IMG/VR virus record: IMGVR_UViG_3300010371_000060 | Location: 1-41,509 of that record | From: a virus | Strand: one strand, 5' to 3' | Length of the DNA stretch: 41,509 bases | In this document: positions 12,037 through 39,626 of the stretch, in pieces | Numbering within the stretch: position 1 is the stretch's first letter | Layout of the letters: each line of letters opens with the position of its first letter | The notes under the pieces: generated by a model | The model's database searches: none | What the model was told of the DNA's origin: nothing | Seen by the model: only the letters and a program-made list of their open reading frames with translations | Made by a program: the position numbers and the translations under genes

Positions 12037-13640
12037 CGCGGATAAGTCCTCGGGTAAGCCGGCGCAACAATGGGACGGTTCTGCTGCCAAGCCCCAACCA
12101 GGTTGTCTGGCAACCAGGGGTTGGCGGCGTAATCGGCATAGTCAGCGGGCTGGCCCGTCCAGGTGGCCATGGAGTTGCACTTGGGCCCGGTGAAGCCGTT
12201 CTTATACACGTCCCGCAACGCACACTCCATCAGCTGTTCCTGAGTGTACATCGCGGGAATTGTGCCGTCCCCTTCATGCGCCGGCGGCACCACCGCGGTG
12301 GAGAATGTTTGGCCTGAAAGGGGCCGCTGTCCCAGCTCATCGGCGCTGTAATGCGCGACACAAACGCGCCCGGTGCCCGAGAGCTGCCGCCGGTCAAACA
12401 GCCCCGTAGTCCCGCCCGGCACAAACGCGCCATTGCCGCTCGAGCCGTAACTTCCCCCGCGCCAAGCGGCCGCTGACCAGATGTGCGCAGCAGAGCCACC
12501 TGTACGTACGGCCACCTCATTGGTGAAGTCAAAGATCATCAGCGCAATGTTGTTGCGGTCCATCGCCGCAAACATCCGCGCGAGGTTGGCCTGGCTGACG
12601 AAGCTAATGCTGACAGCCATGAACCAGCTTGGCGCCGCCGCGCGGAACTTGTCCAGCGCGCCCTGAGCGTTGTTGCCGCCCTCGCTGGCGGAGACCAGAT
12701 TGTTGGTGATGTTGGTATCGGACATCTCCGACACCAGGCTCTGAATCCCCTCAAACTCTGAATAAATCGGGCAGCAGCCAAAGATCGAATTGCCGAAAGT
12801 CTGGTACACTTTCGCCAGACACGCGGCCATGCGATCTGTGACGGCGGCAACATCATACCGCACCGTCGCCACATTGCCGTTGTTGGGAAAGCCCACCGGC
12901 GCAGGCCCATTGACGAGCCCACCTTGGTAAGCCGCCGTGCTGGTCCCTGGTCCAGCTCCAACTCGCCCATAGGTCGCGTTATTGAGCATGTACCCGGGCA
13001 CGGCCGCATGGCCCACATTGCCCGTGACATTGATCTTCCAAAACAACTGCCGCGGCGGCGTCAGCTTACTCAAATACGTGACCAGCGTTTCCAGGTCCGT
13101 CAACAGCTGGCTGAAATCTCCCAGCGTCGATCCCTCGCACTGCGACAGATCAAACACGCACGTGGCAGCGCCAACCTGGTTACCAACGTCCGAGTTGATG
13201 ACCAGGTTGAAGTTGTTGATGAAGTCTGCGCAGCGGGCATTGCCAGTGCCAGCTTGGAAATGAAAGTTTTCATCCCCACCCACATGGAACATCGTGCCAA
13301 GAGTGCCGAGCCAGTTGATGAGCCCGCCACTCTGCGTGGCCACGACGCCCGGCACACCGCCCGGCAGCAGGATCCCGCCCGCCGACATCACCGGCCGGGT
13401 CACCAGCCCCGGCACTGCCGAGGCACCCCCACCCGCCAACCCCAGCGCAGCAGCAGGCACACGCATCCCACTCGCCAACTGCACCGGGGCCGGGGCCAGG
13501 GTCAACACGCCCGTGTTGGGTTGCACCGGGGCATTGCCGCCCCCGGCTTGGAATTGGCCTTCGACCGTCAGCGCACCCGTGGGATTGCTGAGGACGATGG
13601 GCGCTTGCAGCGCCGGGCTGAATGAAACGTTACCGCCCAT
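12033..13640 (-). CDS. Four fibre repeats joined to a large globular, possibly hydrolase-like domain
   Basis: A 535-residue protein. Residues 1-110 contain about four units of the tandem repeat (NPTGALTVEG, PNTGVLTLAP). From about residue 115 a globular domain follows with alternating helices and strands (PRQLFWKINVTGNVG, DRMAACLAKVYQTFG, WFMAVSISFVSQANLARMF, NIALMIFDFTNEV), suggestive of an alpha/beta barrel such as those of glycoside hydrolases. Candidate acidic residues are in YSEFEG and FDFTNE. If correct, it could be a virion glycanase joined to the fibre by the repeat. Six or more Cys residues are unusual for this operon. The enzyme assignment is speculative. Confidence 0.6.
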   Translation of the reverse strand: MGGNVSFSPALQAPIVLSNPTGALTVEGQFQAGGGNAPVQPNTGVLTLAPAPVQLASGMRVPAAALGLAGGGASAVPGLVTRPVMSAGGILLPGGVPGVVATQSGGLINWLGTLGTMFHVGGDENFHFQAGTGNARCADFINNFNLVINSDVGNQVGAATCVFDLSQCEGSTLGDFSQLLTDLETLVTYLSKLTPPRQLFWKINVTGNVGHAAVPGYMLNNATYGRVGAGPGTSTAAYQGGLVNGPAPVGFPNNGNVATVRYDVAAVTDRMAACLAKVYQTFGNSIFGCCPIYSEFEGIQSLVSEMSDTNITNNLVSASEGGNNAQGALDKFRAAAPSWFMAVSISFVSQANLARMFAAMDRNNIALMIFDFTNEVAVRTGGSAAHIWSAAAWRGGSYGSSGNGAFVPGGTTGLFDRRQLSGTGRVCVAHYSADELGQRPLSGQTFSTAVVPPAHEGDGTIPAMYTQEQLMECALRDVYKNGFTGPKCNSMATWTGQPADYADYAANPWLPDNLVGAWQQNRPIVAPAYPRTYPR

Positions 13641-14327: not shown

Positions 14328-16135
14328 TGCTGCTGCGCCTCCTCCGCCTCTTCGCGATCCCGGTCCATCTGGGCGCCGTGCTGCAGGATCCACTCCAGCA
14401 GCCCACCCCCGTGGACCTCCAACTCGAACATATCGCCCATCACCTTGATGAGCGAGACAAACTCCTGTGCCTGCGCAATCTGCCACGCCTGGCACTGAAA
14501 CACGCGCCCGCCCACTGTCACCGGGAACAGCGGCATGCCTTCATTCTCCGGCTGGGCGTAGGCGTGGTGCTCCACCACCGGGGCATTCAGCCGGATGGTG
14601 TTGAGCGCATCAATCACATTCACGCAGCTGTCACACCCGAACAGGTGGAACTTTCTGTAGCCCAGCATCCGCAACAGCGGAATAGCCCGCAGCAGCACGG
14701 TGCAGCCCCCCGGCACCCCGAACCATTTGTCCGGACATTCCTCCTGCAGGATGTCGCGCACAATTTCCGCGGTGGTGTGCCAGAGATACGTGCGTTCCTT
14801 GGGCAGCCCTTCCAGCGTGAGCGGATCGCATTGCGACCCCACCAGATACAGCGTCTCCTCCTGCACCGGATGCGTGAATCGAGCGTTGAACGGCCGGGCA
14901 TCCACCACAACCTGCGCGCTCACTTTCAGCCCATGCTCCAGCGCCCAGTTGTAGGCGCCGTTCAGCGTGACGAGCTTGGCGCCCGCCTGCCGCATCTGCA
15001 CGATGGTCGGCAATTGCGAGAGCAGGGAAGGCCCACCCCCAACAAGCATCACTTCCGCATCGTTGGGCTCGTAGGGGCGCACCTGCTGCCATCCGGCCCG
15101 AATGTTGGCCCGCACGTTGGCACGGATCTGGTCCTGCTCGGTGTTGAGTTCCCCGGAGTCCACCAGGTCCTGCCCGGTGCTCCAGGCGGTGACGTATGCA
15201 ATCAGCGCCGACCCATCCGGCGCCTCTTCCCAGTTGTGGATCTGGCACCCCAGCGCCACCAGCTTCGCCTTCCACCAGGCGGGCGGGTGCACCGAGAGAT
15301 GCAGCTTGTGCCCAATCAGCACCCCACAAGCATCCTCCACACAGCTGATCTGGAAGAAGACGTGCTGCGCGGCCTGCAGGATATTGATGAGCACGCGATC
15401 CACGTCCTGCGGCGGGATGTGCTCCATGACATCCGTGCAGAACCCGTATGGCGCGCTCCACTCACCCGGCAGCGGCACCGTCAAGTCGTGCTGATCAAAC
15501 CGCAGCGCGTGAGATTGCGTGGTGAGCGCCTCGCGCACTTCTGGGTCCAGGCAGTTGCGGGCAAAGTCCAGCAAATGCACCTTGACCAGTTTACCGGCAA
15601 ATGTCGCCATCAGCGAGATGGCCGCGCCGCCGCCCCCAGTCCCGCACCCAAAGTCAATCACCTCTGCATTGTTGGGCGGGTTCGCGAACTTCAGGAATTT
15701 CTGCGCGCAGTGCTCACCCGGAATGACCTGGCGATACTCCGGGTGCTGCCACATCTCCTCATATTTGGCCTGCTCGCTGACCACGTCCTTGTGAACCTCA
15801 AGCACCGTCTCGGCACCGTAGGCAGGGTTCTGCCGTACGTACTCCGGAATGCTCATCCCCGCAGCAGCGAGCGGCTTATATTCCTCATTGCCGGCGCACT
15901 TGTGCATCACGTCCGGCGCCAGCGCGGCGCCACACGCCTCGCAGTGCGTGCGACCTTCCTTGATGGTCAAAACGGGTGGCTCGGAAAACACCCCCGAGTC
16001 CGCTGTGGCCAGCGGAGGGCCGGGACACTTGTGGAACACGAATGCGTAAACGGGCTCCCCGCACACCTCACAATGGGTGCGGCTTGCCTGCACGGCGCCG
16101 CTGACTGCGGCCCCGATTGGGTCGTTTGTTGACAT
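14324..16135 (-). CDS. Double zinc-knuckle, SAM methyltransferase and DUF115/MptE-like fusion
   Basis: A 603-residue multidomain protein. Residues 22-37 and 65-80 are two copies of a C-x2-C-x9-H-x-C knuckle. Residues about 125-340 are a class I SAM-dependent methyltransferase: motif I is VIDFGCGTGGGG at about 159-169, the acidic post-motif is LLDF, and DVMEHIPPQDV corresponds to motif IV. Residues about 360-560 resemble DUF115 (6-hydroxymethylpterin pyrophosphokinase MptE-like, also in glycan-modifying proteins): VMLVGGGPSL, VTLNGAYNW and AQVVVDARPFN. It is embedded in virion genes and the partner genes before and after are overlapping. It probably modifies a small molecule or glycan; substrate unknown. 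Confidence 0.8.
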   Translation of the reverse strand: MSTNDPIGAAVSGAVQASRTHCEVCGEPVYAFVFHKCPGPPLATADSGVFSEPPVLTIKEGRTHCEACGAALAPDVMHKCAGNEEYKPLAAAGMSIPEYVRQNPAYGAETVLEVHKDVVSEQAKYEEMWQHPEYRQVIPGEHCAQKFLKFANPPNNAEVIDFGCGTGGGGAAISLMATFAGKLVKVHLLDFARNCLDPEVREALTTQSHALRFDQHDLTVPLPGEWSAPYGFCTDVMEHIPPQDVDRVLINILQAAQHVFFQISCVEDACGVLIGHKLHLSVHPPAWWKAKLVALGCQIHNWEEAPDGSALIAYVTAWSTGQDLVDSGELNTEQDQIRANVRANIRAGWQQVRPYEPNDAEVMLVGGGPSLLSQLPTIVQMRQAGAKLVTLNGAYNWALEHGLKVSAQVVVDARPFNARFTHPVQEETLYLVGSQCDPLTLEGLPKERTYLWHTTAEIVRDILQEECPDKWFGVPGGCTVLLRAIPLLRMLGYRKFHLFGCDSCVNVIDALNTIRLNAPVVEHHAYAQPENEGMPLFPVTVGGRVFQCQAWQIAQAQEFVSLIKVMGDMFELEVHGGGLLEWILQHGAQMDRDREEAEEAQQQ

Positions 16136-28583: not shown

Positions 28584-28664
28584 CGCGATTTGGTGTAACG
28601 GTAAACACAGCCCCCGCAAGGGTGGCGCCCAAAAGGCATGCGGGTTCGAATCCCGCAATCGCGA
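28584..28664 (+). tRNA. tRNA-like element with aberrant anticodon arm
   Basis: A perfect 7-bp acceptor stem (CGCGATT/AATCGCG) encloses a D arm (GTGT, loop AACGGTAA, ACAC) and a canonical T arm (GCGGG-TTCGAAT-CCCGC) with the GTTCGAAT box; the discriminator is A and CCA is not encoded. Between D and T arms, where 22-24 nt are normal, there are 31 nt. They fold as GCC-CCC-GCAA-GGG-T-GGC (a GNRA tetraloop hairpin with one bulge, 28610-28626) and GCC-CAAAA-GGC. Forcing a 7-nt loop gives anticodon CAA (Leu) with G at position 33, which should be U, and a C-U mismatch. It is probably a decayed tRNA or a tRNA mimic. Confidence 0.55.
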
Positions 28665-28673
28665 CCTCGACTC

Positions 28674-31308: not shown

Positions 31309-31544
31309 CCCGGTACGGGTGCACGGACACCGGCATGCACCCCATGGAGCGGGGCAATTGGGTGCGCATCGAGGAAGTCGAAGCGCTGCTGCGGGACAAT
31401 GAGGCGTTGCGCTTTGCGGCGGAGCTGAACCGGGACACGGTGATGGCGCAACAGCGGGTGTATAATTTGGAGCTGCTGCGGCTCACGGAGGAGCTGCACG
31501 CTTACAGGAGCGGCCTGTTTGGTCAACGGAGAAAACGAAGATGA
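31299..31544 (+). CDS. Small helical protein
   Basis: An 81-residue protein, mostly a single charged helix (WVRIEEVEALLRDNEALRFA, NLELLRLTEELHAYRSGLFG) with a basic tail QRRKRR. The start region (GCTDTGMHPMERGNWVR) resembles small helical phage proteins of unknown role. It overlaps its neighbours by 10 and 4 bp. Confidence 0.6.
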   Translation: MQVTRYGCTDTGMHPMERGNWVRIEEVEALLRDNEALRFAAELNRDTVMAQQRVYNLELLRLTEELHAYRSGLFGQRRKRR

Positions 31545-32113
31545 CGCTTGATTTCAGTGATGCTGCGGAATCCCTTGCGCAAGACAAGCTTGGGCAAGTG
31601 GCGGACTTGGTGCGGGCGCTGCGGGCGGCGCAAGCCACCGTGGCCCAACGTGAAGCTGCGCTGGAGGAGGCAGTGAAGGCGGCCACGCTGATTGAGCAGC
31701 AGTCCCTCCCGGAATTGATGCGGGAGTTGGGCATGCGGGAGTTTGTACTCACGGACGGCGCCAAGCTCAGCGTGAAAACCGACTACCACTGCTCCATCCC
31801 CAAAGCGCAGCAAGCACAAGCGTTCGCCTGGCTCCGGGAGCACAAGGCGGAAGCGTTGATCAAGCGCACCGTCTCCGCCGTCTTTGGCCGGGGTGAGGAC
31901 GCCATTGCGGATCAAACTCTGCGCCAGCTCCGGCAGCTGCTGGGCGAGGACGCGCGCATTGAGGAGAAGACCGCCGTGGCGCCGCAGACGCTGGCGGCGT
32001 TTGTGCGGGAGCGCTTTGCCAATCAGCAGGAGGTGCCACGGGAATTGTTTGGGGTGTTTGAAGTGACCAAGGCTATAATCAAACCAGCCAAGAGGACCGA
32101 CGATCATGAGTAA
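31541..32113 (+). CDS. Conserved phage replication-module protein, ssDNA-binding partner
   Basis: A 190-residue protein with the layout of a family commonly encoded next to the following gene in phage replication modules: an N-terminal coiled coil (DLVRALRAAQATVAQREAAL), IEQQSLPELMRELGMREFVL then TDGAKLSVKTDYHCSIPKAQ, AFAWLREHKAEALIKRTV, and a C-terminal VAPQTLAAFVRERFANQQE with VPRELFGVFEV. I recall it without an assured function. It probably acts with the next product on single-stranded DNA. Overlaps it by 8 bp. Confidence 0.7.
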   Translation: MTLDFSDAAESLAQDKLGQVADLVRALRAAQATVAQREAALEEAVKAATLIEQQSLPELMRELGMREFVLTDGAKLSVKTDYHCSIPKAQQAQAFAWLREHKAEALIKRTVSAVFGRGEDAIADQTLRQLRQLLGEDARIEEKTAVAPQTLAAFVRERFANQQEVPRELFGVFEVTKAIIKPAKRTDDHE

Positions 32114-32909
32114 AGAACAGCAGAACGCCGTGATGGCGTTTGATGACGTTGCCGGGGACTACTACCAGGGGCTCGACCCGCAGGCCTTCACCATGCCGTT
32201 CCTGGCGCTGCTGCAGGGGCTTTCCCCGCAGTGCCAGCGGGGCAACCCTGCGTATGTGAAGGACGCGGCGCCGGGCATGATCCTGAACACGCTCACCGGG
32301 AAGCTGTATGAGCGGTTGGATGTGAGCGTGGCCAAGCGGACGCATTCGCTGTGCTGGTGGACGCCGCGGGACAAGGGCGGCGGCTGGCTGGGGGAGATTG
32401 AGCTGGAGCGCCCCGGCACGGAAGCGGAGCAACGGTTCATGGCGCTGCCGCTCGACGAGAAGAAGCGCCGCATCGACAAAGACGGCAATGAGTGGACCGA
32501 GCACCGCAACTTCTTCTGCCGCATTGTGGCGGCGGACAACGCGCGGGAACCGGTGGTGGTGAGCCAGACCAAGAGCCAGCTGAAGACCGCCCGGGACTGG
32601 AACAGCTTGATCGATTTGTACAGCGCCCGCGTGCCCGCACGCAGCCCGGATGGGCAGGTGATCACGGGACAGGACGGGCGGCCGCTGATGCGTCCGGCGC
32701 TGGGCTCCGAGATCTGGACTCTCAGCAGCAAGCTCCGCACCAAGGGCGAGAACTCCTGGTTCATGTGGACCGTGGCCCACAAAGGCCGGCACAACAACGT
32801 GGTGGTGCTGGATGATGTGAAAGCCGCCATCGCCGCCGCCAAGGAGATGAAGCTGCTGGCGCGGCCGGCGCCGGAGGACCCGGAGGAAGCGCCGAGCGGG
32901 GAGATGTGA
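32106..32909 (+). CDS. Putative phage ssDNA-binding replication protein
   Basis: A 267-residue protein. FTMPFLALLQGLSPQCQRGN, AAPGMILNTLTGKLYER, and SLCWWTPRDKGGGWLGEIE fit a phage family with a 'PFL-x-x-LQ-x-LSPQ' start, usually annotated as ssDNA-binding or replication-associated. Conserved aromatic and basic residues in the middle (FFCRIVAADNAREPVVVSQT, WFMWTVAHKGRHNNVVVLDD) would suit an OB-like fold. The acidic Pro/Glu-rich tail (PAPEDPEEAPSGEM) recalls the acidic tails of SSB proteins. No T7 gp2.5 identity is claimed. Confidence 0.65.
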   Translation: MSKEQQNAVMAFDDVAGDYYQGLDPQAFTMPFLALLQGLSPQCQRGNPAYVKDAAPGMILNTLTGKLYERLDVSVAKRTHSLCWWTPRDKGGGWLGEIELERPGTEAEQRFMALPLDEKKRRIDKDGNEWTEHRNFFCRIVAADNAREPVVVSQTKSQLKTARDWNSLIDLYSARVPARSPDGQVITGQDGRPLMRPALGSEIWTLSSKLRTKGENSWFMWTVAHKGRHNNVVVLDDVKAAIAAAKEMKLLARPAPEDPEEAPSGEM

Positions 32910-33446: not shown

Positions 33447-33746
33447 GCATACTTGCCGGCAAGTGGGGCCACGGCCCCGCCGCCGGGAGCCCCGCCCCGG
33501 CCGCCCACGGGAGGGCGAAGACCCGGACACCAGGCCGGAGACCTCCACGGGATGACGGCGCAGCCGGGGCCACCCCCAAGTTGGGTTGACGGGTAACCCG
33601 TGCAGCTTCGCGCTGCCTCAGTAGGGACCTGCTCACCGCATGGCGACGCGCCCGCGGACACCTCTTTAAAGGGGTGGCTCGCGTGGCCCGGGGCCGCTTG
33701 ATACGCGCCCATGCCCCCTCCGGTGATTTGACCCGTCATTCAAGAA
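33447..33746 (+). ncRNA. Hairpin-rich non-coding region, candidate structured leader RNA
   Basis: There is no gene-like frame in this 300-bp, very GC-rich stretch. Perfect or near-perfect hairpins follow each other: CTTGCCGGCAAG (33452-33463), GGGGCC-AC-GGCCCC (33465-33478), ACGGGT-A-ACCCGT (33589-33601), GCAGC-TTCGC-GCTGC (33602-33616) and CACCTCTTT-AAAGGGGTG (33659-33676, one wobble). It leads straight into the first hammerhead ribozyme. It may be a structured leader or a stand-alone RNA released by that ribozyme; it matches no RNA class I can name. Confidence 0.45.
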
Positions 33747-33845
33747 TGTCGAAACCGCACACGCTGGCGCCGCAAGAAACGCGCCCAACGGAAACCCGTC
33801 GTGTGTGGTCTGCGCTGCGGCGGTACCGCACGCACTGATGAGACA
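33747..33845 (+). ncRNA. Hammerhead ribozyme HHR-a, type II with branched stem III
   Basis: Open stem II TGTC (33747-33750) pairs with GACA (33842-33845). The core is GAAA (33751-33754), TC (33809-33810) and CTGATGA (33835-33841), all canonical. Stem III is CCGCACACG/CGTGTGTGG (9 bp, one G-U) capped by a 36-nt insert that can form two more hairpins (GGCGC/GCGCC and ACGG/CCGT), i.e. a three-way junction. Stem I is TGCG+TGCGG/CCGCA+CGCA with one bulged C and loop CGGTA. Predicted cleavage is between 33810 and 33811, 68 nt before the next ATG. Confidence 0.88.
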
Positions 33846-33878
33846 AACCAACTTCAACGCACTTTGGAGTTCCTTAAC

Positions 33879-34343
33879 ATGCCCAAGCCAAAAACGCTCG
33901 AAGGGCTCAGCCCCACGTTTGTTGAGCTGACGCGCCACACGATTGCCCACGCGGAAACCAACGACTGCGCCGTGAAGGCGATTGCCGCGGCCACTGACGC
34001 GCCATACACCACCGTCCTCAACGCGCTCTACGCCGCGGGGCGCCGGCCCCGCCGCGGCACGCCCATGGCGGCGACGGAGCAGGTGATGCAGCAGCTGGGG
34101 TTCCGAATGGTGCCGGTGCTGATGAGTCACTTCATTGAGCAGTACCCCGCGCCGCATCACACATTGCGCTCCGTCACCACGCATCACCCCGACCGCTTCC
34201 GCAAGGTCTGGGCGGATGGGCAGACGTACTTGCTGCGGACGCGCTCGCACATCCTGTGCGTGAAGAACGGCGTGAATCTGGACTGGACCCGCGGCAAGGC
34301 GAAGCGTGCCTGGCGGATTTACCGAGTGGAGAAGATGGCATGA
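33879..34343 (+). CDS. Possible papain-like cysteine peptidase fold protein
   Basis: A 154-residue protein starting at the ATG at 33879 (GGAG 9 bases upstream). TNDCAVKAIAAATDAPYTTV places a Cys at the start of a helix, RSHILCVKNGVNLDW places a His on a following strand and an Asp/Asn nearby, and GTPMAATEQVMQQLGF sits between. This Cys-His-Asp order with 'D-C-A-(V/I)-(K/R)-A-(I/L)' is seen in papain-like/C39-like phage proteins of unknown substrate. First gene after HHR-a; HHR-b begins at the base after its stop. Confidence 0.65.
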   Translation: MPKPKTLEGLSPTFVELTRHTIAHAETNDCAVKAIAAATDAPYTTVLNALYAAGRRPRRGTPMAATEQVMQQLGFRMVPVLMSHFIEQYPAPHHTLRSVTTHHPDRFRKVWADGQTYLLRTRSHILCVKNGVNLDWTRGKAKRAWRIYRVEKMA

Positions 34344-34399
34344 GGTCGAAACGGCGCCGGGATGCGCCGTCTGCCCGTCAGGCGGGCACTGATGAGACC
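34344..34399 (+). ncRNA. Hammerhead ribozyme HHR-b, type II
   Basis: GGTC (34344-34347) and GACC (34396-34399) form the open stem II. The core is GAAA (34348-34351), TC (34370-34371) and CTGATGA (34389-34395). Stem III is CGGCGC/GCGCCG with loop CGGGAT; stem I is TGCCCG/CGGGCA with loop TCAGG. Every core position is canonical and all stems are perfect. Predicted cleavage is between 34371 and 34372. It begins directly after the stop codon of the preceding gene and lies 26 nt before the next ATG. Confidence 0.95.
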
Positions 34400-34425
34400 A
34401 AACCCACACTGAAGGAACTCGCACC

Positions 34426-34800
34426 ATGACTAACCCCTCAGCAATCCTGGCCAGCGTCATGCTGCTCAAGCGGTTGCAAGACGAAGGCAAGGAAGAGACA
34501 CTTGCCGCTGGGATGAAGATGTATTGGCGGCTGTTGGCCAGGGAGGTGTGCAAATTGGAGTTGCCGCCGCATGCCGTGATTGCTTTCGCGGCCGTGGATG
34601 CTTATCTGGATTACGGCGGAGACTTGAGCAAGGGGCTGGCTTTTGCCAAGGCCATTGTTGAGCGCAGAGACAAAGCGCACTGTTTGGAGGTCTTTGCTGC
34701 CTCAGAGCGCGTGGCGGAAGTGGGCTATAAGCTGATGCTTGCGCCGCCGGAACAAGCCGCCGATCAAATTCTCGCCATGCTGAAGGAGTGCATAAAATGA
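34426..34800 (+). CDS. Small helical protein
   Basis: A 124-residue protein with AAGGA upstream of its ATG. It is mostly helical (ASVMLLKRLQDEGKEETLAA, MYWRLLAREVCKLELPPHAV, EVFAASERVAEVGYKLMLA). No family recognised. First gene of the segment released by HHR-b cleavage; its mRNA would begin with the stem I hairpin 54 nt upstream. Confidence 0.6.
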   Translation: MTNPSAILASVMLLKRLQDEGKEETLAAGMKMYWRLLAREVCKLELPPHAVIAFAAVDAYLDYGGDLSKGLAFAKAIVERRDKAHCLEVFAASERVAEVGYKLMLAPPEQAADQILAMLKECIK

Positions 34801-35096
34801 ACCGCCCGGTGCTCAAGCTCACCCGCCGCAAGCGGAATGCGCTGAATCGGGGGACGGCGGTGCATCTCGGCGGGAGCCGGGTGCAGTTCATCTGGCCCTG
34901 CGGCTGCGTCAAAGAGGAAACCGTGCACTCCCCCGCCGGAGCGCTGCCCCCCGATGCGGTGCGTAAGCTCGTGACGCATTGGCGAGATTGCGGTGTCACG
35001 CTGCCGCAGTGCCGCAATCATCCCAACTTCTACTCCCCTCTCAACCAGGTGCCACGGCTCAACCGTGCGTATCCACAACCGGAGACGCCATCATGA
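34797..35096 (+). CDS. Small protein with Cys/His residues
   Basis: A 99-residue protein (ATGA overlap). It has a basic start (LKLTRRKRNALNRG), then VQFIWPCGCVKEETVHS and WRDCGVTLPQCRNHPNF, giving C-x-C and C-x7-C-x2-H groups that could bind zinc. No family recognised. Confidence 0.55.
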   Translation: MNRPVLKLTRRKRNALNRGTAVHLGGSRVQFIWPCGCVKEETVHSPAGALPPDAVRKLVTHWRDCGVTLPQCRNHPNFYSPLNQVPRLNRAYPQPETPS

Positions 35097-35350
35097 CCGA
35101 GGACGACAACAATCCGTTTCTGCGTGGGTCACAGATCTTCTCCATCTTTGGGCAGATTGAGGAGGTGGTGGCGCAGGCCATGATTGATGAAGGCAAGGCC
35201 AAGCGCATCGAGCGCAACACCTTCCCTTCCGCGCGGGACTGTCCGCACTTGCACACCGACGCGCTCGGCCGGCCGGCCAAGTTCGCGGTGCTGATGCCGC
35301 GGCAACGGGTGCGGGAGTTTGAGGATCGGATTGCGGAGCTGCGCGCATGA
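35093..35350 (+). CDS. Small protein of unknown function
   Basis: An 85-residue product (ATGA overlap at both ends). Helical first half (FSIFGQIEEVVAQAMIDEGK) and a second half with FPSARDCPHLHTDALGRPAK and a final helix. No family recognised. Confidence 0.55.
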   Translation: MTEDDNNPFLRGSQIFSIFGQIEEVVAQAMIDEGKAKRIERNTFPSARDCPHLHTDALGRPAKFAVLMPRQRVREFEDRIAELRA

Positions 35351-35478
35351 AGTTCCGCATTCGGTACTTGAAAGGGACGCGCACGCTCCTCACGCAAGCG
35401 TACCCGCGGGAAGCAGCCATCCTGCTCTGTCGAGCCGCTCGCAACAATGGCGTGCCTTGCTGGCTGGTGCCGGCTTGA
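35347..35478 (+). CDS. 43-residue basic protein
   Basis: A 43-residue ORF starting MKFRIRYLKGTRTLLTQAYP and ending CWLVPA. It begins with an ATGA overlap and ends 2 bases before the next ribozyme, so it fills the gap exactly. Eight Arg/Lys and three Cys... no, two Cys residues are present (LLCRAA, PCWL). It could be a small nucleic-acid-binding protein or inhibitor; unproven. Confidence 0.5.
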   Translation: MKFRIRYLKGTRTLLTQAYPREAAILLCRAARNNGVPCWLVPA

Positions 35479-35480
35479 GA

Positions 35481-35542
35481 GGTCGAAACGCGCCCCGCTG
35501 CCCGCGGGGCCGTCTGGGCGTCATGCGCCCACTGATGAGACC
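35481..35542 (+). ncRNA. Hammerhead ribozyme HHR-c, type II
   Basis: GGTC (35481-35484) with GACC (35539-35542) form the open stem II. The core is GAAA (35485-35488), TC (35513-35514) and CTGATGA (35532-35538). Stem III pairs CG-GCCCCGC (C35491 bulged) with GCGGGGC-CG, loop TGCCC; stem I is TGGGCG/CGCCCA with loop TCATG. The flanks (GAGGTCGAAACG, CACTGATGAGACCAA) match HHR-b, so they are relatives. Predicted cleavage is between 35514 and 35515. The next ATG is 28 nt downstream with AAGGAG. Confidence 0.93.
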
Positions 35543-35569
35543 AACTTCAACGCACAAGGAGACCCACTC

Positions 35570-35977
35570 ATGAACACCATCACCACGCACCATGGCGTCG
35601 AGGGCCCGCGGCACGACCCATACTCCTTCACCGAGATTGCCCTCACGCTGCGCGGCGGCGAGGTTTCCGTCACGTTGCATCGCGGCCTGGGCGATTACGC
35701 GGAACTGGACGTGCTGATTGCCCGTAAACACCAGCGCACATTCATGATGGCGCGGCCGGAGGAGCGGCTACTGGCGGACGTCACGCTGCAGCGCTGGGTT
35801 GGGCTCACCAGCACACAGATCGTTCGTCTCGCTCGCAAGGCGCAGGAGGTGCCTGCGCGGCTGCACAAGGCACACGGCGGGGTGGAATGGGTGTCTGGAT
35901 TCCCAGGCGAGACGTTGTGCATGTGCCGCTGTGGCATGATCATTGGCACAACATTCAATGAGGAGGCTGTCCGATGA
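35570..35977 (+). CDS. Protein of unknown function with C-terminal Cys pair
   Basis: A 135-residue protein with AAGGAG upstream of its ATG. Segments: FTEIALTLRGGEVSVTLHRG, YAELDVLIARKHQRTFMMAR and ETLCMCRCGMIIG (C-x-C-x-C). It appears alpha/beta with a metal-binding-like end. No family recognised. It leads the segment downstream of HHR-c. Confidence 0.6.
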   Translation: MNTITTHHGVEGPRHDPYSFTEIALTLRGGEVSVTLHRGLGDYAELDVLIARKHQRTFMMARPEERLLADVTLQRWVGLTSTQIVRLARKAQEVPARLHKAHGGVEWVSGFPGETLCMCRCGMIIGTTFNEEAVR

Positions 35978-36222
35978 AGCTGAGAAAGAAGAAGGCGCCG
36001 CCCCCGCACCTCACGGTGGGGGTGTTTCTGGCTTGTAACCCGGGCAAGGTGTACACGTACAAGGTGCGCCGCGGGCACAAGCTGGTGCGTGGGGATGAGG
36101 TGGTGGCGGACACGCCGCGTGGCCCCGTGGTGGGGTATGTGGTGCGGCTTGACGCTGAGCCACAGGACACAGATCCAACGATCACGTACAAATTCATTGA
36201 GCGGAGGAGCGTGCTGATATGA
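35974..36222 (+). CDS. Small SH3-like/beta-barrel phage protein
   Basis: An 82-residue product: LTVGVFLACNPGKVYTYKVR, then KLVRGDEVVADTPRGPVVGYVVRLD. The 'K-x-Y-T-Y-K ... L-x-x-G-D-x-V-V' strands followed by 'G-P-V-V-G-Y-V-V' are seen in small phage beta-barrel proteins, resembling the N-terminal DNA-binding barrel of PriA. ATGA overlaps on both sides. Confidence 0.6.
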   Translation: MKLRKKKAPPPHLTVGVFLACNPGKVYTYKVRRGHKLVRGDEVVADTPRGPVVGYVVRLDAEPQDTDPTITYKFIERRSVLI

Positions 36223-36488
36223 ACACTTTTTCAAACTGGTGGGTCCACCTGTCCTGGGCGCAGGGGGTGCTGGTGGTGGTGGGGCTGGCGGTGGGGCTGT
36301 ATGGCGCGGCGGGGGCAGTCCGGCGCCTTTTCACCGAGCGGAGCTGGCCCATGGCGCTGGGGCTGGCCTCCGCGTTGGGGGCCACGTTTGTGGCGTTGGC
36401 GCTGTTGATCATTCTGCGGAGCACCCCGGGAGACGTGGCCTGCTTCGATCCGCAGCTCACGCACTACGACAAGGGGGACAAACCGTGA
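36219..36488 (+). CDS. Small membrane protein, two predicted helices
   Basis: An 89-residue protein with membrane segments at about residues 14-34 (QGVLVVVGLAVGLYGAAGAV) and 44-66 (MALGLASALGATFVALALLI), and a short polar C-terminus. It starts a cluster of three small membrane-type genes, joined by overlaps. It could act in lysis or exclusion, but neither is supported by motif. Confidence 0.6.
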   Translation: MNTFSNWWVHLSWAQGVLVVVGLAVGLYGAAGAVRRLFTERSWPMALGLASALGATFVALALLIILRSTPGDVACFDPQLTHYDKGDKP

Positions 36489-36583
36489 CGGAATACGCAG
36501 TGGTGGCGGTGCTCATCGCCGTGATTGAGTGCAAGGATCGTTGGGATTGGCGGCATTTGTGGAGGGCGCGTCATGGCTCCTGA
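36485..36583 (+). CDS. 32-residue hydrophobic peptide
   Basis: A GTG-started ORF in a GTGA overlap with the previous stop. It has a hydrophobic N-terminal half (YAVVAVLIAVIE) and a Trp/Arg-rich end (RWDWRHLWRARHG), the profile of a single-span membrane peptide. It overlaps the next start by 11 bp, whose ribosome site (GGAGG) lies inside it. Support is positional and compositional only. Confidence 0.4.
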   Translation: MTEYAVVAVLIAVIECKDRWDWRHLWRARHGS

Positions 36584-36767
36584 ACGATTGATCATCGCGG
36601 TGCTGTTGGGCGTCACGGCGCTGGCCTGGTTTGCGGAGTGGTTGTATTCCCGCAAGCCCCGGCGCCCGCATTTGCGCCCCACCCCGGATGAGCGAGACTG
36701 GCTGAAGCAATACAACCGGGGGCAAAAGGCCTCTCGCCACTCCAACCCCGGAGGGCCGCCGCCATGA
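36573..36767 (+). CDS. Small single-span membrane protein
   Basis: A 64-residue protein with GGAGG 8 bases before its ATG. It has an N-terminal membrane helix (RLIIAVLLGVTALAWFAEWL) followed by a basic, Pro-rich cytoplasmic-type tail (SRKPRRPHLRPTPDERDWLK). The topology suggests N-out/C-in. No family recognised. Confidence 0.55.
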   Translation: MAPERLIIAVLLGVTALAWFAEWLYSRKPRRPHLRPTPDERDWLKQYNRGQKASRHSNPGGPPP

Positions 36768-37015
36768 AGTTTTACGCATCCCTGGTGGGCCCGCTGCTGG
36801 GTGTGTATTGCCCGTTGCCAGCGGAGTTGGATAACATGGTGCTGCGCCGCGTGGCGCTCAATTCCTCGCGGCTCAAGCACCTGTGGTGTGCGGTGTATAC
36901 GGAAGAGGAGGTGAAGCGGTTTGTCAGCCAGCATGATGGTGTGGTGTTGCCGGATCGTTATGCCCGGATGTTGGATTATGACGCTCATGAGGTGAACCTA
37001 TGTCGAACAAAATAG
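36764..37015 (+). CDS. Small protein of unknown function
   Basis: An 83-residue product (ATGA overlap) with LVGPLLGVYCPLPAELDNMV, HLWCAVYTEEEVKRFVSQ and VLPDRYARMLDYDAHE; probably alpha/beta. The last 16 bp overlap the next gene. No family recognised. Confidence 0.55.
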   Translation: MKFYASLVGPLLGVYCPLPAELDNMVLRRVALNSSRLKHLWCAVYTEEEVKRFVSQHDGVVLPDRYARMLDYDAHEVNLCRTK

Positions 37016-37305
37016 TCACAGGCCCGCGCAAGCCGCCACGGCGAGTGGCGCCGCGGCCCCCGGGGGAGTATCACCGGGTGGTGCAGCTGTTCGCGGAGCT
37101 GTATCAGCGGTGGGATGGGCGCGGGAACTTTGAGGACGTGATCACCACGTTGCGGGCGCACCTGCCGCGTGGGGCGGAGAATCTGAAGGTGAACGCTGAG
37201 CCCTTCACCGCGACGTACATGCTGCGTGGCGAGAAGATGTGGCTGCGTGCCACGCCGTTCGGGGTGCATTACAACGACCCCGCAAGCCCATTGATAAGCC
37301 GGTGA
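37000..37305 (+). CDS. Small protein whose 3' end is part of a ribozyme
   Basis: A 101-residue protein: a basic N-terminus (TGPRKPPRRVAPRPPG), then YHRVVQLFAELYQRWDGRGN and FEDVITTLRAHLPRG helices, and MLRGEKMWLRATPFGVHYND. The last seven codons (for residues SPLISR and the stop) are also stem I, core and loop II of the HHR-d ribozyme; the stop TGA is the first three bases of loop II. A ribosome finishing this gene would therefore sit on the ribozyme core. Confidence 0.6.
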   Translation: MSNKIVTGPRKPPRRVAPRPPGEYHRVVQLFAELYQRWDGRGNFEDVITTLRAHLPRGAENLKVNAEPFTATYMLRGEKMWLRATPFGVHYNDPASPLISR

Positions 37306-37352
37306 GACTCCGGCGAAACGTACCGGCCAGCAACTGGTCGGTATGTCTGGGT
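37286..37352 (+). ncRNA. Hammerhead ribozyme HHR-d, type I with U3/A8 core
   Basis: Stem I GCCCA (37286-37290) pairs with TGGGT (37348-37352). Stem II is GCCGG/CCGGC with loop TGAGACT (37303-37309). GAAA is at 37315-37318. Stem III is 12 bp (CGTACCGGCCAG/CTGGTCGGTATG, two G-U) with loop CAA; TC at 37346-37347. The core strand is TTGATAA (37291-37297) in place of CTGATGA: positions 3 and 8, which pair in the active hammerhead, have changed together from C-G to U-A. Predicted cleavage is between 37347 and 37348, 28 nt before the next ATG. Confidence 0.82.
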
Positions 37353-37375
37353 CAACACACAAAGAGGGTCACGCA

Positions 37376-38377
37376 ATGAGTCATTTCACAGTGTTGGTGG
37401 TGGGGCCGGAACCGGAGAAGCAGCTGGCGCCGTATCATGAGTTCGAGTGCACCGGGGTGGACAATGAGTACGTCCAGGACATCGACATCACATCCAAAGT
37501 GGTGGCAGCGCGGCGGGATGAGGTTTTCCTGGACGCAGCCAAAGTGTCCCGTTGCACACGGGAAACGCGCGCAGTGATGCAGGAGCGCAACCCGCTACTG
37601 GATGTGCTGGAGCACTTCGGGCTGCACGAAACGCTCATCCGCATCACGCCGCGCATCGGCACGGACGCAGAGCAGATTGCGGCGCAGCTGGACCTCGCCG
37701 GCAAGCATAAGTTTGGATACGCCGTGGTGAATGAAGACGTCACGGAGCTGGTGAAAGTGATCGATCGAACCAATCCGAACAAGAAGTGGGACTGGTATCA
37801 GCTGGGCGGCCGCTGGACCGGGTTCTTCCAGCTGCTGCCGGGGAAGGAGGGCACGCTCGGCAGGCCGGGCCTCATGACGGAAGCGCCAGAGAAAGGCCGG
37901 GCGGATGCCGCACTCAAGCAGGACATCGACATCGAGGCCATGCGGGATGAGGCGGAGATGAAGGCGCGCAAGTTGTATCGGGAGTTTCATCGTTGGTGTG
38001 CGGGGCTGCCTGCGCCGGAAGCCTGGACAACGGTGCTGGGGCGCTTTGGGGAGAAGGAGCTTGACGCTGCGCGCACTGCGTATGGGGCGCAGCCCGTCAT
38101 TGCCCGGCTGCGGGAGCACCGCTCGTTGTTCTGGATTGAGGAGCCGCGAGACTTCTTTCTCCAGTCTGAGGAGGAGCAGGTGCTGCGGGCGCGCAGCTCC
38201 GCACTGGTGCCGTTTGCGTTTGTGAAGGACGGCAAGTGGTGCGAGCGCGGGGAGATGGGCTTTTGGGCGATGGTGTCTAACGAGACACCGCGCGACGAGT
38301 GGGAGGAGCAGTTCAGCAAGATGCTGGACGCGCTGCCCGGGGACACGCTGCTCAGTCTGTACGACTGCCACATCTGA
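37376..38377 (+). CDS. Conserved phage protein of unknown function
   Basis: A 333-residue protein starting at the ATG at 37376 (AGAGGG 9 bases upstream). It opens SHFTVLVVGPEPEKQLAPYH then EFECTGVDNEYVQDIDI, a hallmark start of a protein often seen in phages and sometimes in prophages without known function. WDWYQLGGRWTGFFQLLPG and RSSALVPFAFVKDGKWCERG are further typical blocks. The preserved acidic and aromatic residues suggest an enzyme or binding protein. It sits between two type I ribozymes. Confidence 0.75.
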   Translation: MSHFTVLVVGPEPEKQLAPYHEFECTGVDNEYVQDIDITSKVVAARRDEVFLDAAKVSRCTRETRAVMQERNPLLDVLEHFGLHETLIRITPRIGTDAEQIAAQLDLAGKHKFGYAVVNEDVTELVKVIDRTNPNKKWDWYQLGGRWTGFFQLLPGKEGTLGRPGLMTEAPEKGRADAALKQDIDIEAMRDEAEMKARKLYREFHRWCAGLPAPEAWTTVLGRFGEKELDAARTAYGAQPVIARLREHRSLFWIEEPRDFFLQSEEEQVLRARSSALVPFAFVKDGKWCERGEMGFWAMVSNETPRDEWEEQFSKMLDALPGDTLLSLYDCHI

Positions 38378-38438
38378 ACCCACTGATGAGCCGGTGAGAC
38401 CCCGGCGAAACGGCGCACAAAGGAGGCGCCGTCTGGGT
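38378..38438 (+). ncRNA. Hammerhead ribozyme HHR-e, type I
   Basis: Stem I ACCCA (38378-38382) pairs with TGGGT (38434-38438). The core is CTGATGA (38383-38389), GAAA (38407-38410) and TC (38432-38433). Stem II is GCCGG/CCGGC with loop TGAGACC; stem III is CGGCGC/GCGCCG with a 9-nt loop (38417-38425). All core positions are canonical. Stem II and loop II are nearly identical to HHR-d. It begins at the base after the stop codon of the preceding gene; predicted cleavage is between 38433 and 38434, 39 nt before the next ATG. Confidence 0.95.
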
Positions 38439-38472
38439 CGATTCAATCACACACAACAGAGGATTCACGCAA

Positions 38473-39528
38473 ATGAAAACCGGACTCACACTTGCAGAAA
38501 TGGCCACCGAGTTGCAGCGCCGCCACGAGGCCAAGCGCGATTTTGTCGCCGACACCCGCCACCTCACCGTCACCACCGCGGGGCAGGTGGCGCTCTCGCT
38601 CCCCAATGAGCACCTGGTGCTCACGGAAGGCCCCGTGTTCCAGGAGCAGGTCTGCGGCCACTTCAAGATTCCCCGGGACTACGCCAGCCGCATCCGGCAG
38701 GATCACCCCGAGCTGTACCGCGACACCCTCAACACGTTCTTCGGCAAGGAGCCCACGCGCCGCATGGTGCGCGCGCTGGACGGAACGGCCCGCGCGTTCC
38801 TCTCCGACCGCTACCGGCCGCTGGATAACTTTGAACTGGCGAATGCGGTGTTGCCGGTGCTGATGGATCACAAGGACATCCGCATCGAATCCACCGAGTT
38901 CACTGACCGGCGGTTCTATCTGAAGGCCGTGTTCCCGCGCATCCAGACCGAGGTGAAGCGTGGGGACGTGGTGCAGATTGGAGTGATGGTGAGTAACTCT
39001 GAGGTGGGCTCTGGGGCGCTGCAGGTGATGCCGCTGCTGTTCCGGTTGGTCTGTCTCAACGGCATGATTGCCGAGGACTACGGCCAGCGCCGTTACCACG
39101 TGGGCAAGCGAGCGGCGGAGGAGCAGGCGGCGTTCGAGTTGTACACGGACAAGACCAAGGCGCTGGATGACGCGGCGTTCTTCAGCAAGGTGCAGGACAC
39201 AGTCAAAGGCGTCCTCACCCAGGACGTGCTCACCAAGCTCGCCAGCCGGCTCAAGGAGGCCACCGAGCAGCCGCTGGAGGCCAAGTCCCTGCAGTCCGCG
39301 GTGGAAGTGACTGCGCAGCGCTTTGGGTACACCGAGGCCACCAAGGACGGCATCCTGCGGCATCTGATCGAGGGCGGGGACCTCAGTCGGTACGGGCTGA
39401 TGAACGCCATCACTCGCCAGGCGCAGGACGAGGAAAGCTACGAGCGCGCCACCCAGCTGGAGATGGACGGCTCGCGCATCATCGAGCTGCCGCAAACCGA
39501 CTGGCGGGCGATTGCGGAAGCTGCGTGA
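38473..39528 (+). CDS. DUF932-family phage/plasmid-like protein
   Basis: A 351-residue protein with AGAGGA upstream. It matches the DUF932 layout: DFVADTRHLTV, CGHFKIPRDYASRI, RRMVRALDGTARAFLSDRYR (the 'A-x-x-S-x-x-Y' signature), RIESTEFTDRRFYLKAVFPR, GDVVQIGVMVSNSEVGSGAL and PLLFRLVCLNGMI. DUF932 proteins are common on phages and plasmids; some are suspected to influence recombination or DNA protection, but no reaction is established. It follows HHR-e. Confidence 0.88.
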   Translation: MKTGLTLAEMATELQRRHEAKRDFVADTRHLTVTTAGQVALSLPNEHLVLTEGPVFQEQVCGHFKIPRDYASRIRQDHPELYRDTLNTFFGKEPTRRMVRALDGTARAFLSDRYRPLDNFELANAVLPVLMDHKDIRIESTEFTDRRFYLKAVFPRIQTEVKRGDVVQIGVMVSNSEVGSGALQVMPLLFRLVCLNGMIAEDYGQRRYHVGKRAAEEQAAFELYTDKTKALDDAAFFSKVQDTVKGVLTQDVLTKLASRLKEATEQPLEAKSLQSAVEVTAQRFGYTEATKDGILRHLIEGGDLSRYGLMNAITRQAQDEESYERATQLEMDGSRIIELPQTDWRAIAEAA

Positions 39529-39533
39529 CCCGT

Positions 39534-39602
39534 GACCCCGAGGGATAATCGGGGTCGGCTCGGGGGGTGGGGCGCTGAAGTGCGACGGTGCCCCGCTCCC
39601 CG
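39534..39602 (+). other. Two consecutive strong RNA hairpins in a ribozyme-free gap
   Basis: The gap after the DUF932 gene holds GACCCCGA-GGGATAA-TCGGGGTC (39534-39556, perfect 8 bp) and then a 13-bp stem from 39561 to 39602, CGGGGGGTGGGGC with GCCCCGCTCCCCG (two wobbles), whose loop can pair further. No U-tract follows either, so they are not standard terminators. This is the one long gap of the operon lacking a hammerhead; the hairpins could be an RNase target or barrier, or an unrecognised ribozyme. Confidence 0.6.
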
Positions 39603-39626
39603 CGGCCGTTAACCGGGAGAACAACA

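Follow-up and report, generated by a model that had tools for sequence, protein, structure and literature searches.

Five hammerhead ribozymes lie in intergenic gaps of one operon of a bacterial virus, all of them on the gene strand, and suggest a viral mRNA that cuts itself into separate gene messages. The window (the whole stretch of DNA that was analysed, 41,509 nucleotides) is positions 1 to 41,509 of IMG/VR record IMGVR_UViG_3300010371_000060. That the five elements are self-cleaving hammerheads that punctuate this operon and divide its polycistronic transcript has, in our estimate, a probability of roughly three in four. An earlier note on this DNA had placed a hammerhead in each of five gaps; covariance models built here, a descriptor scan and folding find one in all five, type II at sites 1-3 and type I at sites 4-5, and the cut sites and leaders that it had given (68, 54, 55, 28 and 39 nt) match to the base. 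The elements and the genes that follow them are listed here; G001 is a relative with a syntenic operon.

33746-33845, plus strand: hammerhead 1, type II; core CUGAUGA at 33835-33841; predicted cut C33810/U33811; 68-nt leader to ATG 33879
33846-33878, plus strand: leader of site 1, containing CCAACTTCAACGCAC, which is identical in the leader of site 3 (35541-35555)
33879-34343, plus strand: phrog_3754 gene, function unknown, after hammerhead 1; its G001 homolog also follows a type II hammerhead
34343-34399, plus strand: hammerhead 2, type II; predicted cut C34371/U34372; 54-nt leader to ATG 34426
34426-35478, plus strand: four overlapping genes after hammerhead 2 (34426-34800, 34797-35096, 35093-35350 and 35347-35478)
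35480-35542, plus strand: hammerhead 3, type II; stem III with one C.C mismatch; predicted cut C35514/U35515; 55-nt leader to ATG 35570
35570-37305, plus strand: seven overlapping genes after hammerhead 3
37286-37353, plus strand: hammerhead 4, type I; core UUGAUAA; predicted cut C37347/U37348; 28-nt leader to ATG 37376
37376-38377, plus strand: phrog_10079 gene, after hammerhead 4
38378-38439, plus strand: hammerhead 5, type I; core CUGAUGA; predicted cut C38433/U38434; 39-nt leader to ATG 38473
38473-39528, plus strand: DUF932 gene, after hammerhead 5; its G001 homolog is 70.5% identical

The 5'-OH ends that would result, as read from the sequence, are 33811, 34372, 35515, 37348 and 38434 for sites 1-5, respectively.

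The hammerheads are distributed by gap. Of the 19 gene junctions from 31.3 to 39.8 kb, 13 are overlaps or 3-nt spacers, all of them without a hammerhead; the other six are gaps of at least 70 nt, and five of these hold one. The sixth gap (39529-39626), which holds none, is beyond the range for which the earlier note had described genes joined by short overlaps except at five gaps, a description that stands. A scan of the gaps for promoters and terminators yielded nothing convincing. The set is serial, on the gene strand, with each element just 5' of a ribosome site, as had been noted before, and this placement fits the splitting of a polycistronic RNA.

The CUGANGA and GAAA core with its three stems is exact at sites 1, 2, 3 and 5. 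At site 4 the core is UUGAUAA with GAAA, a double change (C3U and G8A), so that core pair 3-8 is U-A there and C-G at the other four sites; the A15.1-U16.1 pair and a GUC cut site (NUH rule) are present at all five. (What this means for the folds, which had been called complete, is that the word fits sites 1, 2 and 5 and is loose for site 4, with its UUGAUAA core, and for site 3, with its C.C mismatch.) Sites 1-3 have the type II form, with stem II open and stems I and III closed, as in Rfam Hammerhead_II (RF02276), from which they differ in scoring below its cut-off and in having a short loop I and no recognisable pseudoknot between loop I and the 3' tail, which was looked for in the window elements; these may make another tertiary contact between stems I and II. 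A further difference is their stem II, GGUC/GACC or UGUC/GACA. Sites 4 and 5, which are paralogous copies of one another, share the stem layout of type I hammerheads (stem I open, stems II and III closed) and a UGAGAC loop II; site 4 differs from that class by its U3-A8 core. Stem I of hammerhead 5 begins directly after the stop codon of the upstream gene.

The U3-A8 core (C3U/G8A) is a compensatory variant previously reported to be active, and U3-A8 and A3-U8 cores also occur in relatives; the exact type I U3-A8 pattern is in no other viral contig searched. Site 4 is less likely to be a decayed ribozyme: its two core changes compensate, none of its stems is weak, and type II elements have U3-A8 as well. 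Some elements with non-consensus cores (site 4, and about 12 of the 31 in the distant relative G003) may nevertheless be slow or dead.

Two covariance models carry the identification: R1, for type II, with 27 seed sequences that include site 2, and R2, for type I, made without window sequences. R1 scores site 2 (itself a seed of the model) at 75.5 bits (E 3.6e-20), site 3 at 60.3 bits (E 1.1e-15) and site 1 at 30.0 bits (E 9.2e-7); R2 scores site 5 at 61.5 bits (E 7.8e-20) and site 4 at 45.3 bits (E 6.3e-14). R1 also matches at 31845 (15.9 bits, E 0.013); this match is inside a gene, has four broken pairs and is attributed to chance. The check that the earlier note had proposed, a scan with Rfam models, falls just short: none of the five sites is reported at the gathering cut-off, and with Hammerhead_II in E-value mode site 2 has 35.6 bits (E 2.9e-4), close to the cut-off of 37, site 3 has 19.9 bits, and site 1 is unmatched. 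The gathering score is exceeded by related G001 elements and by seven elements of G003. Rfam Hammerhead_3 matches site 5 as type III (30.3 bits), but in the wrong register; with stem III closed and stem I open this element is type I.

A descriptor scan with the exact core retrieves sites 1, 2 and 5, and with two core changes permitted also site 4; site 3 is absent because of the mismatch in its stem III. On Markov-shuffled sequence the same scan makes no match with the exact core and 0.03 per window with one core change. The hammerhead is the minimum free energy fold at sites 1, 2, 4 and 5 (with all three stems present at site 5, and a fold z of -4.0 at site 4); at site 3 it is the centroid fold, equal in energy to the listed minimum.

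Across 27 aligned type II elements 98.8% of cells are paired, and the covariation score is 0.602, as against 0.148 for shuffled and at most 0.092 for slid alignments; this includes the C3-G8 core pair (23 CG, 3 UA, 1 AU). That alignment came from a scan that required pairing, but in a set retrieved without the requirement, 27 raw matches have 4.5 and 5.0 free positions paired, where 1.6 and 1.1 are expected. Strong hairpins are predicted at every window site, and core variants occur in G003, as they might if the hairpins were stabilisers of 5' or 3' ends, or spacers, with self-cleavage incidental. This is very improbable: the catalytic core and its C3-G8 pair are kept by compensation while the stems vary, and a three-way fold is kept along with, in G003, a pseudoknot between loop I and the tail, neither of which a plain hairpin needs. 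(In 30 of 31 G003 elements at least five Watson-Crick pairs join loop I to the 3' tail of the same element, as against 48% when tails are swapped.)

The arrangement recurs on a larger scale, with 8 to about 31 hammerheads in series in relatives. G001 has ten hammerheads in its syntenic operon, which precede, among others, homologs of the window genes at 33879 and 38473; the DUF932 homolog is preceded there by a type II hammerhead, versus type I in the window. The G001 homolog of the gene at 35974 follows a type I hammerhead, and the gene at 35570 has a homolog in the G003 array. G003 has approximately 31 hammerheads (R1 matches) within 19-20 kb, all on the gene strand and at almost every junction, with a cut-to-start distance of 52-72 nt (median 56, for the 30 elements with a start codon found). 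A scan of IMG/VR yields at least about 15 loci with five or more hammerheads, each locus on one strand among the matches listed, and the UGAGAC loop II motif in 22 further stretches, nearly all of them type I; the cultured Roseobacter phage CRP-212 has two hammerheads, with predicted cuts 57 and 66 nt 5' of gp55 and gp54. Megablast against deposited phages finds no match for the window operon or for the array regions of G001, G002 and G003, and DUF932 as bait retrieved no matches from the viral contigs searched. A tie to particular genes was considered and rejected: homologs of the 37376 gene in cultured phages, and of DUF932 in other phages, are without nearby hammerheads. Since many phages carry homologs of the same genes without hammerheads, these genes can do without the scheme.

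The leaders of sites 1 and 3 have 15 identical bases in common, sites 4 and 5 are paralogous, and G001 has near-identical copies and one deleted remnant, all of which would fit a cassette, neutral or selfish, in which ribozyme and leader are copied together from gap to gap. As a full account this is nonetheless unlikely, since copying accounts for origin and not for retained function; the stems diverge with compensation, and a hammerhead is kept before the same gene while its type changes. The earlier reading of a serial RNA-processing scheme is strengthened by covariation, by the orthologous position kept in a relative and by the larger arrays of other phages.

If the operon is divided in this way, each element would fold and cut during passage of RNA polymerase, 28-68 nt 5' of the next start codon, and the transcript would come apart into separate mRNAs, or into blocks of genes coupled in translation. 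A type II cut would leave the stem III hairpin and a 2',3'-cyclic phosphate at the end of the upstream product, and the downstream product would open with a 5'-OH immediately at the stem I hairpin; a type I cut would leave stems II and III on the upstream product and give the downstream product an unstructured start. In both cases the next ribosome site would be freed from the ribozyme fold. The ability to cut would be that of tandem phage hammerheads reported to do so in vitro and in E. coli (PMC3088659). Cleavage in the window phage, its timing and protection by the end hairpins we infer, as we do the benefit, which may be that each gene or block acquires its own stability and rate of initiation without host or phage nucleases.

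Cutting might instead serve regulation: upstream translation, or the next ribosome site, would gate it, and the ribozyme would couple or uncouple neighbouring genes. At window sites 2 and 5, as at many sites of G001, G002 and G003, the element overlaps or directly adjoins the stop codon of the upstream gene; several G001 leaders are only ~35-39 nt long without a separate strong Shine-Dalgarno sequence, and some G001 starts are ~6 nt past stem II, which would hold the initiation region inside the fold until it opens. In the window and in G003, however, the Shine-Dalgarno sequence is downstream of the ribozyme and unfolding is not needed, and no ligand or switch structure is seen, which makes gating rather doubtful. 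There is also a small chance that phage RNA is protected from host decay or RNA-sensing defence, either by its 5'-OH and cyclic-phosphate ends or because long transcripts are lost early. The elements occur only in arrays of small genes, most of them unknown, and the strands with the structural or replication genes have none; an association of hammerheads with ardA is reported (PMC3088659); against this, there is no direct link to defence, and none of ten G003 array proteins scanned is an RNA-repair protein.

The idea that hammerheads split phage transcripts is itself not new. The earlier note had held that phage hammerheads are reported singly or in few copies, and had named no earlier proposal of such a scheme; this picture is not supported, as Perreault et al. 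(2011) had described hammerheads clustered beside phage genes and proposed the splitting of long transcripts (PMC3088659). The prophage clusters named there (the ardA triple of Agrobacterium tumefaciens, Azorhizobium, Clostridium scindens) resemble those of the window in occupying gaps between phage genes, in flanking single genes or short blocks, in proposed role and in U3-A8 core variants. The largest that the consulted text of that paper gives is a triple, compared with five in the window, ten in G001 and ~31 in G003; relative to that text, it is also new that cuts are regularly spaced from the start codons and that an orthologous gene has retained its hammerhead site through a change of type. 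HHphage of haloviruses HF1 and HF2 likewise immediately precedes a start codon of a viral operon, and a 5' end close to its cut has been reported; it is unlike the window elements in being single, in having core insertions and in belonging to an archaeal virus (PMC3088659). What is established here, from the elements with their strand, position and structure to covariation, recurrence and one conserved site, goes further in scale and placement, and bears on the biological role of bacterial and phage hammerheads, which is stated to be an open question (PMC6155905; PMC10085705).

It is difficult to account for arrays of 5 to ~31 elements, with regular spacing and a site conserved before an orthologous gene, unless cleavage between cistrons is selected for. 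The 2011 proposal becomes directly testable through the many 5'-OH ends predicted in one genome, where consensus and variant cores that occur naturally side by side serve as internal controls, and the elements are ready parts for protein-free splitting of polycistronic RNA. More tentatively, and at somewhat less than even odds, the phages with serial hammerheads (up to ~31, at nearly every junction) may constitute a set that shares a protein-free scheme, in which whole polycistronic transcripts would be turned into near-monocistronic mRNAs with defined ends and the position of a cut before a gene can persist while the type of ribozyme that makes it is replaced.

Most + strand gene junctions at 33.4-38.5 kb of the window (a 41.5 kb virus record) are 4-nt overlaps. 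The five larger gaps in this interval are those named in the earlier note, and each one does contain a hammerhead, with cut positions and leader lengths (cut to next start codon) exactly as proposed there:

Site 1: cut before 33811, 68-nt leader, gene start 33879; type II
Site 2: cut before 34372, 54-nt leader, gene start 34426; type II
Site 3: cut before 35515, 55-nt leader, gene start 35570; type II
Site 4: cut before 37348, 28-nt leader, gene start 37376; type I
Site 5: cut before 38434, 39-nt leader, gene start 38473 (DUF932); type I

Elsewhere in the window are a tRNA-Leu (CAA) gene (28584-28666) and, at 31541-32909, a pair of genes that match the gp33-like and gp34-like families of Pam3 phage (DUF7307, Pam3_Gp34).

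The type II elements read GUC/GAAAC-[stem III]-GUC-[stem I]-CUGAUGA-GAC, and the type I elements stem I-core-GCCGG-UGAGAC-CCGGC-GAAAC-[stem III]-GUC-stem I. On the criteria of core and stems, all five belong to the hammerhead class and are predicted ribozymes; none of these window elements showed an identifiable stem I-II tertiary contact. The sole operon gap lacking a hammerhead (39529-39626) has a hairpin, GACCCCGAGGGATAATCGGGGTC (39527-39560), where the transcription unit perhaps ends. The type I stem III hairpin, at 38411-38430 of the window and at 12773-12832 (- strand) of L115, a stretch of the relative G001, includes AAGGAGG, which is perfectly complementary to the anti-SD; this could be in competition with the ribozyme fold, or be due to chance.

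For SIGNIFICANCE, Rfam by itself is borderline: site 2 scores 35.6 bits against a Hammerhead_II cut-off of 37, and none of the five window sites reaches gathering. The covariance-model check suggested in the earlier note stays below the cut-off with Rfam and is positive, at all five sites, with two models built here. The type II model R1 (27 elements, including site 2) gives E-values of 9e-7 for site 1, 1e-15 for site 3 and 4e-20 for its own seed, site 2; the type I model R2, from which window sequences were excluded, gives 6e-14 for site 4 and 8e-20 for site 5 (all rough, because calibration was short). Comparable folds are practically absent from shuffled windows. The hammerhead is the minimum free energy fold at sites 1, 2, 4 and 5, and the centroid, of equal energy, at site 3.

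Covariation argues for selection on the hammerhead structure. Across 27 type II elements (picked by a scan demanding pairing), 98.8% of cells are paired and 13 of 18 pairs have changed on both sides; sliding the partner by one column lowers pairing to about 30-35%. In 27 distinct matches to a sequence pattern making no pairing demand in the variable parts, 4.5 free positions of stem III are paired versus 1.6 for swapped halves, and 5.0 versus 1.1 in stem I.

Two relatives extend the comparison:

G001 (L024/L115): IMGVR_UViG_3300049458_000012, 75 kb
G003: IMGVR_UViG_3300033551_000003, 64.8 kb

G001 has five genes in common with the window operon (70.5% identity for the DUF932 protein, 45-48% for the others) and nine type II elements (eight with R1 E<0.001) plus one type I element (R2 E 7e-20, itself an R2 seed) within about 7 kb; the gp34-like gene is also present, immediately upstream of this array. 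A type II element precedes gene 33879 and its G001 homolog alike. Upstream of DUF932 the element is type I in the window and type II in G001: the cut position is conserved and the ribozyme topology changed. The G001 type I element is close kin of site 5, yet lies upstream of the 35974 homolog. At about 7870-7893 of L024 (- strand), a gene gap still equipped with its leader and ribosome site contains what is left of a deleted type II hammerhead (GGCGAATGAGACCAAACCAACTC).

G003 is distant kin of the window (terminase, 34% over 542 aa; helicase; 35570 gene). R1, whose seed includes no G003 element, places 31 matches with E<0.001 between 42.6 and 61.3 kb. Every one is on the gene strand, and the remainder of the contig yields nothing at that threshold; a whole-record search recovers 28 of the 31, seven pass the Rfam gathering score, and the exact pattern has 17 matches (control, zero). 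The elements lie between successive small genes, with cut-to-start distances of 52-72 nt (median 56) for 30 of the 31 (gene starts being heuristic) and start codons mostly preceded by a TTAGGAG-like ribosome site. In 30 of 31, loop I can form at least five Watson-Crick pairs with the tail that follows stem II (48% with swapped tails), which corresponds to the pseudoknot of Perreault et al. (PMC3088659). Further IMG/VR loci with at least five hammerheads, among the matches listed and some of them near-identical to one another, are:

Ten: L263
Nine: L116 (G002)
Eight: L204, L212, L270
Seven: L222, L077, L079
Six: L247, L061
Five: L279, L064, L069

These scans are pattern-based, the records metagenomic contigs and the gene calls heuristic. 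In bacterial genome contigs matches are single or in groups of three at most. Many Gastranaerophilales (Melainabacteria) contigs (L123-L198, genome_contigs) have either a single similar type II hammerhead or a pair spaced about 360 nt apart.

The site 4 core, UUGAUAA, has C3 changed to U and G8 to A, a compensatory double change since these two positions are base-paired with each other when the fold is active. U3-A8 is present in type II elements of many viral contigs; it is the sole natural covariation named in the text of Perreault et al. 2011 (PMC3088659), which cites earlier work for its activity. A3-U8 (AUGAUUA), a form not found in open-licence literature text, replaces C3-G8 in type II elements of L061, L064, L106, G003 and a group of near-identical loci that includes L069; coordinates of four such elements are:

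L113 (G003:42001-62000): 14883-14956
L061: 2898-2969
L069: 4972-5043
L106: 1921-1983

In about 12 of the 31 G003 elements the core departs from consensus: four have U4C, four have an additional A following A9, and U3-A8, U3-G8, A3-U8 and A9C also occur. Such variants perhaps reflect decay, or cleavage at graded rates.

Each ribozyme seems to have been copied together with its leader. Sites 1 and 3 have an identical CCAACTTCAACGCAC in their leaders, where even a tolerance of two mismatches would give 0.1 matches by chance, and sites 4 and 5 are alike across ribozyme, leader and ribosome site. A copied cassette of little effect is one rival account of these arrays.

The splitting of transcripts by such elements was proposed in 2011 (Perreault et al., PMC3088659), in text which also reports in vitro cleavage by tandem phage hammerheads and one triple that cuts in E. 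coli; the enrichment of ribozymes close to each other was again called unexplained in 2023 (PMC10085705). Relative to the 2011 proposal, array scale, near-constant cut-to-start distance and type switch at a conserved site were not found described in open-licence literature text, and a larger array may already have been published elsewhere.

Elements, structure, strand, position, recurrence and the hammerhead site kept before DUF932 are direct observations; the largest doubt attaches to the purpose of cleavage. Cleavage would split the window operon into genes up to 33403; 33879; 34426-35478; 35570-37305; 37376; and 38473 onward, giving mRNAs whose 3' ends would carry a hairpin and a cyclic phosphate and whose 5' ends would be 5'-OH, starting within a hairpin where the site is of type II. 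Separation might act on stability or initiation of the gene blocks; this and the timing are inferences. Rival purposes are translation gating and protection from decay or defence; alternatively, the hairpins alone may be functional. Among deposited phages, Anoxybacillus phage A403 has one element and Roseobacter phage CRP-212 two of type II, before gp55 and gp54. CRP-212 (L324, MZ892988.1) is a cultured phage, its two hammerheads are unannotated, and it is a practical test system for phage hammerheads.
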